Shown here in pieces: positions 4,240 through 11,159 of a DNA stretch of 32,568 bases (position 1 is the stretch's first letter; the number at the start of each line of letters is the position of its first letter). Source of the DNA: Acidimicrobiia bacterium (lineage in GTDB: Bacteria; Actinomycetota; Acidimicrobiia; Acidimicrobiales; JANYDT01); assembly GCA_025359845.1 (NCBI GenBank), contig JANYDT010000156.1, positions 1-32,568 of the forward strand. Reading direction: 5' to 3'. The notes beneath the pieces are model-generated. The model searched no databases and was not told where the DNA came from. It was given only the letters and a program-made list of their open reading frames with translations. Both the position numbers and the translations under genes were made by a program.

Positions 4240-5502
4240 CTACACGGCCTCCGGCAGCACCCCAGCAATGCGAGCTACGGCCCTGTAGACCGCCTCTGCC
4301 GGCCCCAACTCGTCGGGGCGCAACAAGTTGGCCATGATGCGCAGCACCCACTCCATCAATGTACGGCTGTGCATTCCGGTGGCCACGAGCGCCCGCATCA
4401 GCTCGGGCTTGCCGATCACATGAACGAACGCCCGAGCCACTCGGTAGTACAGCCCATACTCTGTTTGCAGTCGATCGCCATACCCCTGGAGCGCCATACC
4501 ATTGCCCGTCCGTAAGGCCTCGCCTACGGCCTCGGCCGCCATTCTGCCGGTTTCGTAGGCGTACGCAATGCCTTCGCCGTTGAACGGATTGATCGCGCCG
4601 CCGGCGTCGCCGACCACGACATGGGTGGGGCCCACATGCGGACCTACGGCGAGCGCCATGGGTAGCCGTCCGCCGGTGGCCGGTCCGCAGGCCGTCTCGG
4701 GAGAAATACCCCAATACGACGGAGCCGAATCGACGTAAGCGTTGAGGAGGTGGGTCGTGTTGACGTCTTTCCACTGGTTGAATGTCGACAACAGCCCAAT
4801 GCCGACGTTGACTCGACCGTCGCCCACAGGAAAGATCCACCCGTAGCCGGGTAGACTGTTGCCCTGCTTATCGCGGATGTCGAGGCAGCTTTCGATCCAC
4901 GGGTCGTCGTGCAGAGGCGAGGTGTAGTAGCCCCGAATGGCCATGCCCATCGGGCGGATTCGATCCCTCGACGTGCCGAGCGCCCGTCCGAACCGAGAGT
5001 TGGCGCCGTCGGCCACCACCACGTATCGGGCGTTGATCTCCCTCGTTGCGCCGCGGTCCTTGTCGGTCGCGACCAATCCGGTCATGAGACCTTGGCGCAG
5101 AATCGGGGTCGTGGCCTCGTGGCCTTCGAGCAGCGTGGCGCCCGACTTCACGGCTCGGGACGCGACCAGATGATCGAGATCGTGACGGGTGACCACGTAG
5201 CCGTAGTCCGGCATTCCGGCGACGGTCGGCCACTTCAACTCAAGCGTCTTGCCGAAGGCCAGCGACCGCAGGCCTTCATAGCGATGATGCTTTCGCAGAT
5301 CGTCCGACAAGCCCATGTCGTTCAATTGCTTTACCGACCGGGGCGTTAGCCCATCGCCACAGGTCTTGACCCTAGGAAAATGCTTTTTTTCGACGACCAC
5401 AACGTCGTGACCGGCCTCGGCCAGCCAGTAGGCACAGGCCGCGCCAGCCGGTCCGGCCCCGACGACGGCCACGTCATAACGCTTCGTTGGGGCGGCGATC
5501 AC
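4240..5502 (-). CDS. Geranylgeranyl reductase family FAD-dependent oxidoreductase (MenJ-like)
   Basis: The 420-residue flavoprotein begins with a Rossmann FAD motif VAVVGAGPAGAACAYWLAEAG (GxGxxG at 15-20), followed by VVVVEKKHFPRVKTCGDGL, a segment characteristic of the geranylgeranyl reductase family. The second FAD motif GDAGGAINPFNGEGIAYA starts near residue 298. Family members saturate isoprenoid double bonds; in mycobacteria MenJ partially saturates the menaquinone side chain, while others act on lipids or on chlorophyll precursors. A menaquinone role is inferred here from the location next to a cytochrome c gene and across from the bc/complex I genes. It lies 46 bases downstream of the cytochrome c gene on the same strand and could share its transcript. 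Length and both FAD motifs are complete. Confidence 0.85.
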   Translation of the reverse strand: MIAAPTKRYDVAVVGAGPAGAACAYWLAEAGHDVVVVEKKHFPRVKTCGDGLTPRSVKQLNDMGLSDDLRKHHRYEGLRSLAFGKTLELKWPTVAGMPDYGYVVTRHDLDHLVASRAVKSGATLLEGHEATTPILRQGLMTGLVATDKDRGATREINARYVVVADGANSRFGRALGTSRDRIRPMGMAIRGYYTSPLHDDPWIESCLDIRDKQGNSLPGYGWIFPVGDGRVNVGIGLLSTFNQWKDVNTTHLLNAYVDSAPSYWGISPETACGPATGGRLPMALAVGPHVGPTHVVVGDAGGAINPFNGEGIAYAYETGRMAAEAVGEALRTGNGMALQGYGDRLQTEYGLYYRVARAFVHVIGKPELMRALVATGMHSRTLMEWVLRIMANLLRPDELGPAEAVYRAVARIAGVLPEAV

Positions 5503-5548: not shown

Positions 5549-6271
5549 CTACTTCTTCGCAGGAGCGGGGCCCGGGGCAACCGTGTCGACGGGGAAGGGC
5601 TTGCCTTGCAAGACGGAACGCTCATACTGAATGACGGCCTTGATCTCGTCGTCGGTGAGCGCACCCTCCCACTTGGGCATGCCGCCCTTGGCCTGATGCT
5701 GGCCCCCTTCACGCTTGGGGTTGCCGTAAGGCGTTCCGACCGCATAGCTGCCGCGCTTGACGAAGGCGATTTGCTCTGCTTCGCTGACAAAGGTCTTCTC
5801 GACTTCTCCCTTCCAAAGGGGTCGGCCCACTCCTCCTGAATCGGACCCTGAGCCATCGGGTTGGTGACAACGCGAGCAGTTGACTGAATACACTGCGGTT
5901 CCGACGGCTTCCGGCCCTACCAGCTTCTCTTTTTGCGCGGCGAACACGCTTACGTACGAGATGGCCCATACGGGTAACAGCAGCAACATCGGAAGGGCGA
6001 ATCGGGGAATGGCCGGGCGGCGAGGCCGGTGCGGTCGAACGGCTTTGGGTGGAGTCGGGGGCGGAGGGGAGCCGCCGCCAGTAGCGAGCGCCGCTACGGC
6101 CGACGCCGGCGCAGGGGCGGCCGTAGCGGTTGTCACCACGGCCGGGACGGCGGCCACGGCATCGTCTCCGCCTAGTCCGAGCGCGGCGCGACGAGAGCGC
6201 GAACGTTCGAGTAAGTGCGGGGGTACTTCAGCCACGGCTCCTCCGGATTCGGCCTGTCGGGTGTGCGACAA
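5549..6271 (-). CDS. Membrane-anchored monohaem cytochrome c
   Basis: A 240-residue protein in three parts. Residues 1-90 are Ala/Pro-rich and presumably cytoplasmic, containing the VPPHLLERS motif at 16-24. One transmembrane segment follows (about 91-111, FALPMLLLLPVWAISYVSVF). Then comes a class I cytochrome c domain with CSRCH at 132-136 and a likely axial Met at about 198 (GGMPKW). The C-terminal LTDDEIKAVIQYERS helix closes the fold and closely resembles the end of the dihaem cytochrome encoded at 9984. It probably carries electrons from the bc module on the outside of the membrane. The gene is transcribed divergently from the respiratory supercluster and shares its 175-base intergenic region. 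The long cytoplasmic extension is unusual for a single-TM cytochrome c. Confidence 0.87.
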   Translation of the reverse strand: MSHTRQAESGGAVAEVPPHLLERSRSRRAALGLGGDDAVAAVPAVVTTATAAPAPASAVAALATGGGSPPPPTPPKAVRPHRPRRPAIPRFALPMLLLLPVWAISYVSVFAAQKEKLVGPEAVGTAVYSVNCSRCHQPDGSGSDSGGVGRPLWKGEVEKTFVSEAEQIAFVKRGSYAVGTPYGNPKREGGQHQAKGGMPKWEGALTDDEIKAVIQYERSVLQGKPFPVDTVAPGPAPAKK

Positions 6272-6446: not shown

Positions 6447-6956
6447 ATGATTGCCTTCCTCGCGTCCAGCGCCCTCCTAGCCCTTCTCGTTGGAGGGGCA
6501 GTGCAGTATGGAAAACGCCGCACCGTCGGCACGCCTATGACATGGGCCGAGGCCATGATCGCGGCTTTGTTCGTGTTCGGCGTGTTCTTCCTCGCCTACG
6601 GAATCTTGCCTGACGCTTGGTTGCGCTGGGCCGATGGGGGGCTCCGCTGGCGCTCCGATGCCAAGGGCATCCCTATCGGGCCGCTGCGTCACCTCATGAA
6701 CAAGTCCTGGAACAACCATTGGTACTCCTACGAGAAGAACACGTTGTGGCCGACCGGCGTAACCTTCTTCGGGCGCGGTCGAGTCACGATCGTCAAGGAG
6801 CACGCTCGCGACTTTGTCGCCGCCAACATCTACATCGTGTTTCTCGCTATCCAGCTCAAGCTGTGGGGGGCGTGGCAAAAGCGGGGCAAGAAGCTTGCCT
6901 CCTCCGAGGTCGAGACGACGTCGGCGTTCGGCCGACCCCTGGTCCGCCAGGCCTAA
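6447..6956 (+). CDS. Unknown membrane protein at the head of the bc/nuo supercluster
   Basis: A 169-residue protein that I do not recognise. It has two clear N-terminal transmembrane segments (about 2-20 and 35-53), then a Trp/Lys-rich middle part (SWNNHWYSYEKNTLWPTG) and a third hydrophobic stretch (about 125-143). The tail is hydrophilic. It is the first gene after the divergent promoter region, 18 bases upstream of the ferredoxin gene, in the same direction as the cytochrome b and Rieske genes. It has no cofactor-binding motif. By position it may be an extra subunit or assembly factor of the quinol:cytochrome c reductase; this is inference. The ATG at 6447 is chosen as no in-frame upstream start exists within the leader; the ribosome binding site is weak. 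Confidence 0.75.
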   Translation: MIAFLASSALLALLVGGAVQYGKRRTVGTPMTWAEAMIAALFVFGVFFLAYGILPDAWLRWADGGLRWRSDAKGIPIGPLRHLMNKSWNNHWYSYEKNTLWPTGVTFFGRGRVTIVKEHARDFVAANIYIVFLAIQLKLWGAWQKRGKKLASSEVETTSAFGRPLVRQA

Positions 6957-6974: not shown

Positions 6975-7388
6975 ATGGCCAAGACCGACGCCAATCCGCC
7001 GCTTCCCTACTTTCCCGGTGAGTACGTTCTCACTGAGATCACCGTCGACGACCTGAACAAGTCCGTGAAGCCGAAGCAGTTCCTTCACATCGACCAATCC
7101 GAGTGCATCATGTGCGAGGGTTGCGTCGACATCTGTCCGTGGAAATGCATTCACATGCTCTCAGCCGCCACGGTGGCTGACGCCGTCGACGTGGTGGCCC
7201 CGGGCACCGATCCTGATGACCACGTGGTCTTCGTAGTCGACGAAGACGTCTGTACCCGCTGCGGACTATGCGTTGATCGCTGTCCAACCGGTGTGATCAT
7301 CATGGGAAAAGCCGGTCTCGCACCGCGCGACGGCGACCCGCATAATCGAGACAGCAAGCACGGCTACTCCTACGGCATGCGCTTCTAG
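6975..7388 (+). CDS. 2[4Fe-4S] ferredoxin-type protein of the bc module
   Basis: The 137-residue protein carries two full CxxCxxCxxxC(P) clusters: Cys 44, 47, 50, 54 (CIMCEGCVDICP) and Cys 93, 96, 99, 103 (CTRCGLCVDRCP). The spacer between them, about 38 residues including an acidic VAPGTDPDDH loop, is longer than in simple bacterial ferredoxins, and there are extra N- and C-terminal segments that could dock to a complex. No membrane segment or signal is present, so it should act on the cytoplasmic side. It lies 18 bases after the membrane protein and 18 before cytochrome b. The position suggests an electron donor or acceptor at the cytoplasmic face of the cytochrome b subunit. An AAGGA ribosome site (about 6955-6959) precedes it at somewhat long spacing. 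Confidence 0.9.
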   Translation: MAKTDANPPLPYFPGEYVLTEITVDDLNKSVKPKQFLHIDQSECIMCEGCVDICPWKCIHMLSAATVADAVDVVAPGTDPDDHVVFVVDEDVCTRCGLCVDRCPTGVIIMGKAGLAPRDGDPHNRDSKHGYSYGMRF

Positions 7389-7406: not shown

Positions 7407-8174
7407 ATGGCAACCAAAATGACGCCGCAGCAGCGTATGACCGACATCGCCGACAAGACACAAGGGTCCCAAGCCTGGAACTCGATCTTTCGGCCTGGCT
7501 CGATCTTCCGCAAGGGCTATTCCGACAGTCCTCGTAACCGCAGCTATGTGATCATGAACTCGCTGCTGTATCACCTTCACCCGGTGAAGGTGAAACGCCA
7601 CGCGGTCAAGGTCAGCTATACGCTGTGTCTTGGAGGGCTCTCGTTCTTCTTGTTCATCTTGTTGACGATTACGGGCATCTTCTTGATGTTCTTCTACCGT
7701 CCAACCGAAGCGCAGGCCTGGAGCGACATCCGCAACCTCCAGACCGGGGTCGCGTTCGGCATGCTCGTGCGCAACATGCACAGATGGGGTGCGCACCTCA
7801 TGGTGCTAACCGTCTTCTTGCACATGGCCCGGGTCTTCTATCACGGGGCTTACAAGGCGCCCCGAGAGTTCAACTGGGTAATCGGCGTGATTTTGCTCAC
7901 GCTCACCCTGCTTCTTTCGTTCACCGGTTACTTGCTCCCCTGGGATCAACTCGCCCTGTGGGCGGTGACCGTAGGAACGAACATGATCGGCTATACGCCG
8001 GTCTTCGGTAGACAGACACGATTCGTCTTGCTCGGGAGCATCGAGATAGGCACCAACACGCTTCTTCGATGGTATGTGTTGCATGTCTTGTTGTTCCCGT
8101 TTGTAATCGTCATTTTCATGGCGATCCATTTCTGGCGAGTCCGCAAAGACGGCGGCATCTCCGGGCCGTTGTAG
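7407..8174 (+). CDS. qcrB: Cytochrome b N-terminal subunit, b6 type
   Basis: The 255-residue integral membrane protein is the four-helix haem-binding half of cytochrome b and holds two b haems in the quinol:cytochrome c reductase. Axial His residues are 125 and 139 (14 apart) in helix B and 226 and 241 (15 apart) in helix D; the 15 spacing is the b6f/Firmicutes pattern, whereas bc1 has 14. The TLCLGG segment places Cys74 where b6 has the Cys (FYCLGG) that binds the additional haem c(n)/c(i). The RPT, NMHRW, TGYLLPWDQ and C-terminal ISGPL segments also match cytochrome b6 closely. A hydrophilic N-terminal extension of about 55 residues precedes the first helix. The split organisation is completed by the next gene, 29 bases downstream. 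Confidence 0.93.
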   Translation: MATKMTPQQRMTDIADKTQGSQAWNSIFRPGSIFRKGYSDSPRNRSYVIMNSLLYHLHPVKVKRHAVKVSYTLCLGGLSFFLFILLTITGIFLMFFYRPTEAQAWSDIRNLQTGVAFGMLVRNMHRWGAHLMVLTVFLHMARVFYHGAYKAPREFNWVIGVILLTLTLLLSFTGYLLPWDQLALWAVTVGTNMIGYTPVFGRQTRFVLLGSIEIGTNTLLRWYVLHVLLFPFVIVIFMAIHFWRVRKDGGISGPL

Positions 8175-8203: not shown

Positions 8204-9061
8204 ATGGCAGACATCCCCGAACATCTATTGAAGCGAGCCGAAGAGGCCAAGGCGAAAGCGGCGGCCAAGAAGGCCGCTGCGGCTGGAGGCGCGCCGGTCG
8301 GCGAGCCTGTAGCCGCGACGCCGAACGCCGACGCCGAAGCGGCCGCGAGCTTTGCCGAAGCCGAAGCTTCGGGCAAGATCCCCGCGCACCTGCTCGCTCG
8401 CAGCTCTGCGGCCAAGGCCGCAAAGGCCGGCGCCGGGGGAGGGGCTGGCGAAGAACCTGCGGCCGGCGGTGGAGTTGCCCTGCTTGAGCGCCCGGGTGCC
8501 GGCGCAGCGACGCCTTCGCCCGCAGGACTGGCCCAGACCGGTGGGCCCGCGTTGGTCGGTCCGGCCGGCCACACTCAACGACTGCTGACCGTCGTCAAGG
8601 CCGGCTCGATCCAGGACGTCAAGTCGACCCCTATCGACAAAGTGAGCACTTGGCCCCATCTCTTGGTCGGCGAGTTCGTTGCCTCGTTGCTGTGTACCGC
8701 ATTTCTGCTGGTGTTCTCCACTTTCGTGAGAGCACCGCTGCTGGCCCAAGCCAACTACAACCGGACCCCTAACCCGTCCAAGGCCCCGTGGTACTTCCTC
8801 GGGCTCCAAGAGCTGCTCACGATGTTCCACCCGATGGTGGCCGGCGTGACTATTCCTGGCATGGGCATCTTCATCTTGATCTTGGCTCCCTATACCGATC
8901 GCAACCCATCGAACAAACCCGAGGATCGCAAATTCGCGATCGGGCTGTTCACCATCTTCATGATGTTCTGGGCCGTTCTGGTCGTCATTGGCTCGTTCTT
9001 TCGAGGACCGGGCTTCAACTTCGTCATGCCCTGGAATAAGGGCATCTTCTTCGACTTCTAG
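8204..9061 (+). CDS. qcrC: Cytochrome b C-terminal subunit (subunit IV-like) with Ala-rich extension
   Basis: A 285-residue protein. Residues about 148-285 match subunit IV/the C-terminal half of cytochrome b, with three predicted transmembrane helices (about 155-175, 215-230, 245-266) and the Qo-site region NPSKAPWYFLGLQELL. The usual PEWY tetrad here reads APWY (194-197), so the catalytic Glu is absent at that position. The first ~145 residues are Ala/Gly-rich, probably disordered and cytoplasmic, and contain the motif IPEHLLKR (4-11) and again IPAHLLAR (59-66). A strong GAGGAGG ribosome site precedes ATG 8204. It forms the quinol-oxidising site together with the previous gene and the Rieske protein. 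The symbol follows the split-b usage of Firmicutes; in actinobacteria qcrC denotes the cytochrome c. Confidence 0.88.
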   Translation: MADIPEHLLKRAEEAKAKAAAKKAAAAGGAPVGEPVAATPNADAEAAASFAEAEASGKIPAHLLARSSAAKAAKAGAGGGAGEEPAAGGGVALLERPGAGAATPSPAGLAQTGGPALVGPAGHTQRLLTVVKAGSIQDVKSTPIDKVSTWPHLLVGEFVASLLCTAFLLVFSTFVRAPLLAQANYNRTPNPSKAPWYFLGLQELLTMFHPMVAGVTIPGMGIFILILAPYTDRNPSNKPEDRKFAIGLFTIFMMFWAVLVVIGSFFRGPGFNFVMPWNKGIFFDF

Positions 9062-9076
9062 TCACGGATACCTGAC

Positions 9077-9934
9077 ATGAGCACTGGAGCTATTCTCGCT
9101 GTAGCCGTCGTGGCGGTCGTCGTCCTCGCCGGTCTCTTCCTATTGACGACAGCCCGTCGCAGTGACCGCAACGCCGCCACCGGCTTGCTGGCCCGCGAGA
9201 CGATGAAGCGCGATCGTCAGGCTCGCAAAGCCCGTCGTATCGAAGCCGAAGCTCCGGTGTTTCCGGCCGCGGCCACCGGCAAAGACGTTGAACGGGCTGT
9301 CCGCAGCGCTTCAATTGCCACACCGGCACCCAAACTGCCCGTGCCGTGGACACCTATGGACGAAGAGCAGCTCGGCGTCACTCGCCGGCAGTTCTTCAAT
9401 CGTTCGATCACCGTGATGATGATCGCCGGTATCAGCGGGTTCGCGGCCTCGCTCATCGCCTTCCTCTGGCCTTCATTGAAGGGTGGCTTCGGCTCACGCG
9501 TGACGGTCGGCAAGATCGACGACATCCTCGCTCAGATCACCGCCGCCAACGGTCCGGTGTACGTAGCCGAAGCGCGTACGTATCTCCAGCCCTACCCCGC
9601 GTCTGCTCTGCCCAAAGCCAAGAAGGTGTACGCCGGCGCGGTGCTCGACGGTATGAATGCCGGAGTCGTGGCGCTGTACCAGAAGTGCGTGCATCTGGGT
9701 TGTCGCGTTCCGTGGTGCTCGACGTCGCAATGGTTTGAATGTCCTTGCCATGGCTCGCAGTACAACCGGGTGGGCGAGAAGAAGGGCGGCCCCGCGCCGC
9801 GTGGGCTCGACCGGTTCGCGGTAATTATCGGCGCCGGCGGTATCGTGACGGTCGACAGCTCTGCGGTGGCGGTGGGCCCGCCCATCGGCACCAACACCAC
9901 CGGCCAAGAAGCCGACGGACCGCATTGCGTCTGA
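9077..9934 (+). CDS. qcrA: Rieske [2Fe-2S] iron-sulfur protein
   Basis: The 285-residue high-potential iron-sulfur subunit takes the first electron from quinol. Box 1 is CVHLGC (204-209) and box 2 is CPCHGS (222-227): cluster ligands Cys204, His206, Cys222 and His225, with Cys209-Cys224 as the expected disulfide. There is a first transmembrane helix at the N-terminus (about 4-24), then a hydrophilic loop, a twin-arginine-like TRRQFFNRS (102-110) and a second membrane helix (about 111-131) before the soluble domain. The extra N-terminal helix is reminiscent of actinobacterial QcrA, which has three. The insert PWCSTSQWF between the boxes and an additional Cys at 214 are noted. It lies 15 bases after the cytochrome b C-terminal gene. 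Confidence 0.95.
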   Translation: MSTGAILAVAVVAVVVLAGLFLLTTARRSDRNAATGLLARETMKRDRQARKARRIEAEAPVFPAAATGKDVERAVRSASIATPAPKLPVPWTPMDEEQLGVTRRQFFNRSITVMMIAGISGFAASLIAFLWPSLKGGFGSRVTVGKIDDILAQITAANGPVYVAEARTYLQPYPASALPKAKKVYAGAVLDGMNAGVVALYQKCVHLGCRVPWCSTSQWFECPCHGSQYNRVGEKKGGPAPRGLDRFAVIIGAGGIVTVDSSAVAVGPPIGTNTTGQEADGPHCV

Positions 9935-9983
9935 TGACCGTCCTGACCCTCGTTTGTATTCCTCGTTCCCGGAGTGTTCGTTC

Positions 9984-11159
9984 GTGACCCTCGCCACGCT
10001 CATCAATACCCCGCCGCGCGCCATCGCCGTCGTGGTGGCCGTCGTGGCTATCCTCGGGTGGTTGGTCTTTGTCGTACTGGAGAACCGACGTACTCCTGCG
10101 GTTCTGACGGAGCAGTACCTCGATGCTCCCAACCGGGCCACCGCGCCTGACGATGATGTGTTCGAAGGGCCCCGACTCGATCGGTTCTTGGGTTGGGGTC
10201 TCATTCTGATGGCCATCGTGGCCATTGGTTTGCCCATCTATTGGCTGGCCGAAGTAGGTCGCCAGACAGGGTCCATCCGGGGCTTCGATAAGCGCAGTTG
10301 GCAGCGCGGCGAAGAGCTGTTCCTATCGACGGCGGCCAAGCCTCATCCGGGGTTCGGGTGCGCGGACTGCCATGGGTCGGTCGGCCAAGGTGGCGTGGCC
10401 AAATGGAACCTGGCGGTCTTCAACACCGACGGCACCAAGGTGCAGGAGAACGGCAAGGACAAGCTCGAGCCGGTGTCGTGGGCGGCGCCCGCGATCAATA
10501 CTGTCGCGCTGCGCTACAACGTCACGCAGATCAAGCAGGTGCTCATTTACGGTCGCGGCGGTAACAAGCCGATGCCGGCTTGGGGCGTAGCCGGCGGTGG
10601 CGCCATGAATGATCAGCAGATCGACGATCTCGCCAACTTCTTGCGCCATCTTGCCATTGAGTCATATGAGCCGGCGGTGCAGACCTACAACGACGAATGG
10701 AACCGCAACGGCCACGACGCCGACAAGGCCTACGCCAAGGCGCTCGTGGTCGCCGGGCAGGAGTACCGCAAGGCCAAGAGCAACCCTGCGGATCAGGCCA
10801 AAGAATATCTGGGCGTGAAAGCGAACGCAGGGCAGAGCGAGGGCCAAGCTCTGTTCAACCTGTTTTGTGCCCGCTGCCACACCAAGGGATGGAGTTATCA
10901 GACCCCCAACACCGACTACGCCAAGCCCGCAGTCGCGGGGGGCGGATGGTATGGGCCCAACCTTACGGGGCAGTCCGAAGTCCGCCAGTTCCCGACCGAG
11001 AAGGATCACATCGACTACGTGACCAACGGCGTCGATCAAGGCAAGGGCTACGGCGCTGGGGGCGTGCAGAAGTACGACGGTGGCGGCATGCCTTACTGGA
11101 GCAACATGCTGACGCCTGACCAGGTTAAGGCCATCGTCGAGTACGAGAGGAGCCTGTGA
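9984..11159 (+). CDS. Dihaem cytochrome c with two N-terminal membrane helices
   Basis: A 391-residue protein if started at GTG 9984, which has GGAG about 9 bases upstream; an ATG at 9954 would add ten residues unlike a signal. Two transmembrane helices (about 13-32 and 69-88) are followed by two class I cytochrome c domains with CADCH (126-130) and CARCH (295-299). Candidate axial Met residues are 197 (KPMPAW) and 369 (GGMPYW). It probably receives electrons from the Rieske protein, taking the role of cytochrome c1, and relays them to an oxidase; the two domains resemble the dihaem logic of actinobacterial QcrC, but the two-helix N-terminal anchor differs from the usual layout. Its C-terminus resembles the divergent monohaem cytochrome. 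It overlaps the next gene by 4 bases. Confidence 0.88.
   Translation: MTLATLINTPPRAIAVVVAVVAILGWLVFVVLENRRTPAVLTEQYLDAPNRATAPDDDVFEGPRLDRFLGWGLILMAIVAIGLPIYWLAEVGRQTGSIRGFDKRSWQRGEELFLSTAAKPHPGFGCADCHGSVGQGGVAKWNLAVFNTDGTKVQENGKDKLEPVSWAAPAINTVALRYNVTQIKQVLIYGRGGNKPMPAWGVAGGGAMNDQQIDDLANFLRHLAIESYEPAVQTYNDEWNRNGHDADKAYAKALVVAGQEYRKAKSNPADQAKEYLGVKANAGQSEGQALFNLFCARCHTKGWSYQTPNTDYAKPAVAGGGWYGPNLTGQSEVRQFPTEKDHIDYVTNGVDQGKGYGAGGVQKYDGGGMPYWSNMLTPDQVKAIVEYERSL

Follow-up and report, generated by a model that had tools for sequence, protein, structure and literature searches.

Introduction

Docking peptides and other short linear motifs are carried in disordered protein tails, as in encapsulin cargo peptides and E2 peripheral-subunit-binding modules. 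To our knowledge, the known respiratory supercomplexes use complex-specific contacts. In the III2IV2 (bcc-aa3) supercomplex of Mycobacterium and Corynebacterium, an n-side loop of QcrB covers complex IV, which sets a precedent for contacts on the n side, and in Rhodobacter capsulatus a supercomplex is formed by complex III, cytochrome cy and the cbb3 oxidase (PMC8361435).

Here we describe a short peptide motif, [IV]PxHLLxR, in a divergent bc locus of an Acidimicrobiia bacterium, contained in a stretch of 32,568 nucleotides (the window). A first-pass annotation had placed the motif twice in the Ala-rich N-terminal tail of the cytochrome b C-terminal subunit (subunit IV) and once in a divergently transcribed monohaem cytochrome c; the three octapeptides exist as claimed (Table 1). 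The annotation called the two proteins unrelated, which is true of their folds, although a single divergent bc locus encodes them both. We find that [IV]PxHLLxR is a real, class-wide, uncatalogued short motif or module of respiratory proteins. Judged from sequences and structural models, it probably serves as a docking tag, not described before, by which respiratory proteins are gathered on the inner face of the membrane.

The divergent bc locus

Table 1. Genes, motif copies and predicted helices of the divergent bc locus (positions in the window), with the loci of the Nfu_N-like carrier
Feature	Position	Strand	Basis or remark
Monohaem cytochrome c, membrane-anchored: motif, Pro/Ala linker, TM helix, CxxCH	5549-6235	-	PF13442/PF00034, AF2, probable start codon
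Predicted helix 18-30 (TTG-start numbering) around copy 3	6182-6220	-	AF2, block pLDDT about 79-88
Motif copy 3, VPPHLLER	6203-6226	-	Monohaem cytochrome c; residues 4-11 if GTG start at 6235
Small conserved membrane protein	6447-6956	+	No Pfam match; C-terminal [YF]G[RK]P tail class-wide
Dicluster 4Fe-4S ferredoxin-like protein	6975-7388	+	Fer4; conserved across loci
Cytochrome b6-type N-terminal subunit, without motif	7407-8174	+	PF00033
Cytochrome b C-terminal subunit (b6f-type subunit IV), long Ala-rich N-terminal tail	8204-9061	+	PF00032, E 2.9e-9, residues 182-265
Motif copy 1, IPEHLLKR	8213-8236	+	Residues 4-11 of subunit IV
Predicted helix 6-26 around copy 1	8219-8281	+	AF2, block pLDDT about 75-91
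Motif copy 2, IPAHLLAR	8378-8401	+	Residues 59-66 of subunit IV
Predicted helix 61-77 around copy 2	8384-8434	+	AF2, block pLDDT about 70-81
Rieske protein	9077-9934	+	PF00355
Dihaem cytochrome c	9954-11159	+	Two PF00034 stretches; listed start uncertain
Nfu_N-like protein	L066-L071, L166, L287; own copy G000:C91:6848-7147

The cysteines and histidine of CxxCH and the distal methionine of the monohaem cytochrome c are invariant in 33 orthologues. Nearly all of the Acidimicrobiia bc operons read have the ferredoxin-like gene, an unusual operon member, between the gene at 6447 and that of cytochrome b6. The last 12 residues of the 6447-6956 protein (TSAFGRPLVRQA) contain a second class-wide tail motif, [YF]G[RK]P[LMIV], after which basic residues usually come; every listed orthologue has it, and it is possibly another docking tail of the same complex. 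Adjoining the cytochrome c gene and often kept in place is a geranylgeranyl-reductase-like FAD protein (4240-5502, minus strand; FAD_binding_3, weak GGR_cat), perhaps a menaquinone side-chain reductase.

Start of the cytochrome c. The first-pass annotation put the cytochrome c motif at residues 16-24, a numbering counted from a TTG start at 6271. A start codon occupies the position three codons before [IV]P in all 61 cytochromes c examined, 60 from relatives and one from the window (43 GTG, 17 TTG, 1 ATG), and in the window GGAGGA precedes the GTG at 6235-6233. This GTG is the probable start, with the motif at residues 4-11. Since start codons are in register throughout, subunit IV and cytochrome c very probably both begin M-A-[DE]-[IV]-P-x-H-L-L-x-R (MADIPEHLLKR and MAEVPPHLLER, respectively).

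Recurrence in the window and its genome. Searched as a degenerate DNA pattern, [IV]PxHLLxR matches three times in the window, where shuffles give an expectation of 0.02. Across the whole genome (4.69 Mb) the same pattern finds these three copies and one other, reading MPSHFFGR, which we take as chance or unproven. A 22-residue profile (A1) built from relatives gives E-values of 9.4e-9, 9.6e-8 and 7.8e-7 for the three copies, the next best match in the genome having 0.22. The wild-type sequence of the tag peptide is MTEIPEHLLKRSRERR. At the nucleotide level only 12-16 of 23 positions are identical between copies, with differing synonymous codons, which rules out a DNA-level repeat or gene conversion as their source; copies that differ as DNA and are alike as peptides indicate that selection acts on the peptide. 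Chance in a GC-rich genome is ruled out by the shuffles, by a backward-pattern control and by genomes lacking subunit IV. Profile searches found no tag in the oxidase subunits of this genome, nor in the dihaem cytochrome c, Rieske protein and cytochrome b6, the operon's other cofactor proteins.

Distribution across Acidimicrobiia

Subunit IV orthologues occur in 247 of 296 Acidimicrobiia genomes, and the 22-residue profile matches 235 of the 296. Loci that could be named through GTDB contigs fall in Acidimicrobiia (Ilumatobacteraceae, Microthrix, Acidimicrobiaceae and others). Among 80 named loci, subunit IV carries the motif in 78, with two copies in 65, and almost all of the divergent cytochromes c carry one; the two motif-less subunit IV loci (L250, L260) are interrupted by contig ends. 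Twenty of 20 tested relatives without subunit IV had no motif at E 1e-3 (best 0.03). In a 247-genome sample of the phylum no motif was found in Actinomycetota outside Acidimicrobiia, all 16 motif genomes being class members. The possibility that the motif occurs at chance frequency with no preference for respiratory proteins, raised in the first-pass annotation as what would refute its proposal, is thus not borne out: the motif greatly exceeds chance, extends through the class and is found almost exclusively on respiratory proteins.

In four genomes (G003, G107, G040 and G115) the tag is on subunit IV only; G003 is 99% complete in one contig. G040 has a single significant copy, while elsewhere genomes with the tag on subunit IV alone often have two. 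A pattern match in a transporter-like protein of G138 was taken as chance or unproven. A small KOW-like protein of G227 (L079 1749-2214) ends in IPAHLLERAKNRKKAEG with E 0.0017, a single case that could reflect chance or a further gain of the tag.

In one clade (L214, L215, L234, L239, L253) the subunit IV and cytochrome c motifs are near-identical over 18 residues (GIPEHLLKRAQEAREKAA and GIPEHLLKRAQEARDKAA) and have in common a G before IP, a sequence likeness that suggests exchange or co-evolution there. More widely, the cytochrome b and c motifs resemble each other within genomes (p 0.0008 for the flank, 57 dereplicated genomes). With the GIPEHLL clade and two others removed the likeness is weak (p 0.02 for the whole 18-residue stretch), and co-evolution was dropped as proof of a common partner.

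Conservation and predicted structure

In 96 motif instances the proline is invariant (96/96), and the histidine (93/96), leucine (94/96) and arginine (95/96, with a single Lys) are nearly so, followed by S/A/T. On a helical wheel drawn from these counts, the conserved residues share one side with the A/R and A/L positions further on, and the variable positions lie opposite. Across 34 Acidimicrobiia orthologues of subunit IV, majority-residue conservation averages 0.93 and 0.89 in the two copies and 0.87 in the enzyme core, falling to 0.26 and 0.32 in the linkers; in cytochrome c it is 0.85 for the motif versus 0.45 for the linker. AlphaFold2 predicts tail helices at the motifs only (Table 1), between linkers of pLDDT near 40-55; the subunit IV model is poor overall (pTM 0.26), so only its local helices were used. 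By conservation and structure prediction alike, the motif is a conserved island inside a non-conserved disordered region, and it recurs above chance in proteins of different fold, both of which we looked for in a docking tag.

The N-terminus of subunit IV lies on the n side in b6f complexes. From this topology, and from the basic stretch before the single TM helix of cytochrome c, we infer that the tails are cytoplasmic.

No significant match over the motif or module was found in Pfam or NCBIfam, including the peripheral-subunit-binding domain, and a PDB profile search over the module reached a best E of 1.9, at chance level. A literature search returned no paper on the [IV]PxHLLxR motif or on the tails of Acidimicrobiia complex III.

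A longer module and other carriers

In deeper families (f27, f32, f35, f38, f43, f46 and others) the motif lies within a longer module of 35-45 residues, GxPExLVxRSAxARAxAxGxxVExVLAxWxG, with single-genome E-values down to 1e-21; many copies have an additional N-terminal helix-like stretch (alignment A3). Intermediates such as VPEHLLRRSKERRKALGLPVEG (L109) connect the short and long forms, and the order to which the window belongs has only the first part. Outside Acidimicrobiia the long-module profile found nothing convincing; a match at 6e-4 in one genome of the phylum (G467) was treated as chance.

The module occurs in up to five copies on subunit IV (in one 517-residue frame), in one to three copies on monohaem cytochromes c, on a FixO-like oxidase subunit (PF02433) and on a multi-TM protein of ~420 residues. 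In G272 a divergent operon beside the bc operon encodes a COX1-like protein, FixO and cytochrome c, the latter two with the module, and in both G046 and G272 the multi-TM protein is near aa3-type genes (COX1, COX3, and COX2 or COX4). The multi-TM proteins at L167 2221-3477, L168 1919-3190 and L169 1521-2795 each have one N-terminal module copy; in L316 and L317 the protein is near aa3-oxidase genes and adjoins a conserved uncharacterised membrane protein (HGVGGRxDLPIP).

A soluble carrier was found in family f2, where a small protein resembling Nfu_N (PF08712; E about 1e-3, which does not reach the Pfam cut-off) has a C-terminal VPxHLLxRSxxARxRx. This protein is present in 93 of the 148 genomes of the order, including that of the window, and in the loci read outside f2 it is without the tag. 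The tag has therefore changed from N- to C-terminal positions and reached a soluble protein; such movement between termini and proteins is known of portable docking tags. A story of complexes III and IV alone does not predict this carrier, which counts against it.

Interpretation

The helix is portable, has invariant polar residues on a hydrophobic face and sits in disordered tethers of proteins that must meet; this combination is best read as a docking tag. We give a probability of roughly one half to the reading in which a shared cytoplasmic partner binds the motif as a short helical docking tag and so holds complex III, its cytochrome c and oxidases in a cluster. The tag would face the cytoplasm, both on a b6f-like complex III specific to Acidimicrobiia and on the membrane-anchored cytochrome c of that complex. 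Each copy would form a helix capped by proline, its conserved face (P, H, L, L, R, S/A, A) fitting into a groove of the partner and the unconserved Ala/Pro linkers serving as tethers. Having the same tag on subunit IV (usually in two copies), on cytochrome c and, in deep lineages, on oxidase subunits would keep complex III, the electron carrier and the oxidases clustered. The existence of the partner and clustering as the purpose are what we infer from these carriers. The ferredoxin-like protein and the 6447-6956 membrane protein can be named as speculative partners, purely by proximity in the operon.

The first-pass annotation had suggested a docking or targeting tag, perhaps for supercomplex assembly. 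Docking fits the predicted helices in disordered tails and a recurrence that beats chance; support for the supercomplex part is indirect. It comes from deep lineages, with the module on subunit IV, cytochrome c, FixO and a membrane protein beside aa3 genes, whereas the window's own genome has no tagged oxidase subunit. Genomes with the tag on subunit IV only indicate that it does not serve everywhere to link different proteins through identical tags; together with the untagged oxidases here, they lead us to prefer recognition by a common hub over a simple link from cytochrome b to cytochrome c.

The hub is also preferred over four other explanations. The helices or modules might bind each other without a separate receptor, so that tails bundle within complex III dimers or between complexes; the same module on all partners, its repetition up to five times per protein and the frequent second copy where subunit IV alone is tagged all speak for this. 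It is nevertheless unlikely, given genomes with one tagged protein, among them G040 with its single significant copy, and a conserved face whose invariant H and R resemble groove recognition more than coiled-coil packing. Somewhat lower we rank a signal used in maturation rather than in the finished complex, read by an assembly, haem-loading or Fe-S-loading factor or by a quality-control protease. The extreme N-terminal place in both proteins, the several c-type cytochromes among the carriers and the C-terminal copy on an Nfu_N-like protein in one family are in keeping with it, yet internal second copies in subunit IV and that same C-terminal copy misfit a simple N-terminal signal, and the dihaem cytochrome c, Rieske protein and b6 of the operon do without the tag.

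We consider it very unlikely that an amphipathic basic helix pins the tails to the inner leaflet: the helix is net positive, has a Leu/Ala face and occurs beside membrane proteins, but its hydrophobicity and moment are low (muH 0.04-0.34), invariance of His, and of Arg over Lys, is unexpected for lipid binding, and the soluble Nfu_N-like protein carries it too. Least credible is a relic, the leftover of an ancestral module that drift or gene conversion has preserved although it has no current function. That the window's order retains only the first part of the module would suit a relic; motif conservation equal to or above that of the enzyme core, beside freely varying linkers, would not, nor would the differing codons of the copies.

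A bolder form of the preferred docking reading, which we hold as tentative and rather doubtful, is that one portable cytoplasmic module wires the Acidimicrobiia respiratory chain, with a hub binding the helix on complex III, membrane cytochromes c, FixO-type and aa3-linked oxidase proteins and, in one family, an Nfu-like factor. If true, a portable module recognised by a hub would make this the first respiratory supercomplex based on a tag and not on an interface. A single conserved tag over different respiratory proteins would offer a simple handle on how bacterial complexes find each other; in a large environmental class, mutating one peptide or competing with it could show whether the chain comes apart. 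FixO, cytochrome c, the membrane protein beside aa3 genes and the Nfu_N-like protein, all of them carriers, form a ready list of likely partners, and carriage of the tag helps to annotate proteins without an assigned function.

Comparison with known systems

Like short linear motifs elsewhere, the Acidimicrobiia tag forms conserved short helix islands in variable linkers and is portable between unrelated proteins and between N- and C-termini; unlike the docking peptides named above, its family is absent from the libraries searched (Pfam, NCBIfam and PDB). The R. capsulatus supercomplex, for which we know of no common cytoplasmic tag, is similar in its membrane-anchored monohaem cytochrome c, and deep Acidimicrobiia also encode a FixO-type oxidase beside complex III. 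The locus resembles the III2IV2 supercomplex in having an Actinomycetota complex III, a cytochrome b polypeptide extended on the n side and a membrane-tethered cytochrome c instead of a soluble carrier. In III2IV2 a fused cytochrome b makes the contact through a single loop that is not repeated, whereas here cytochrome b is split into b6 and subunit IV, and what extends it is a disordered tail at the N-terminus bearing a repeated short motif common to other proteins.
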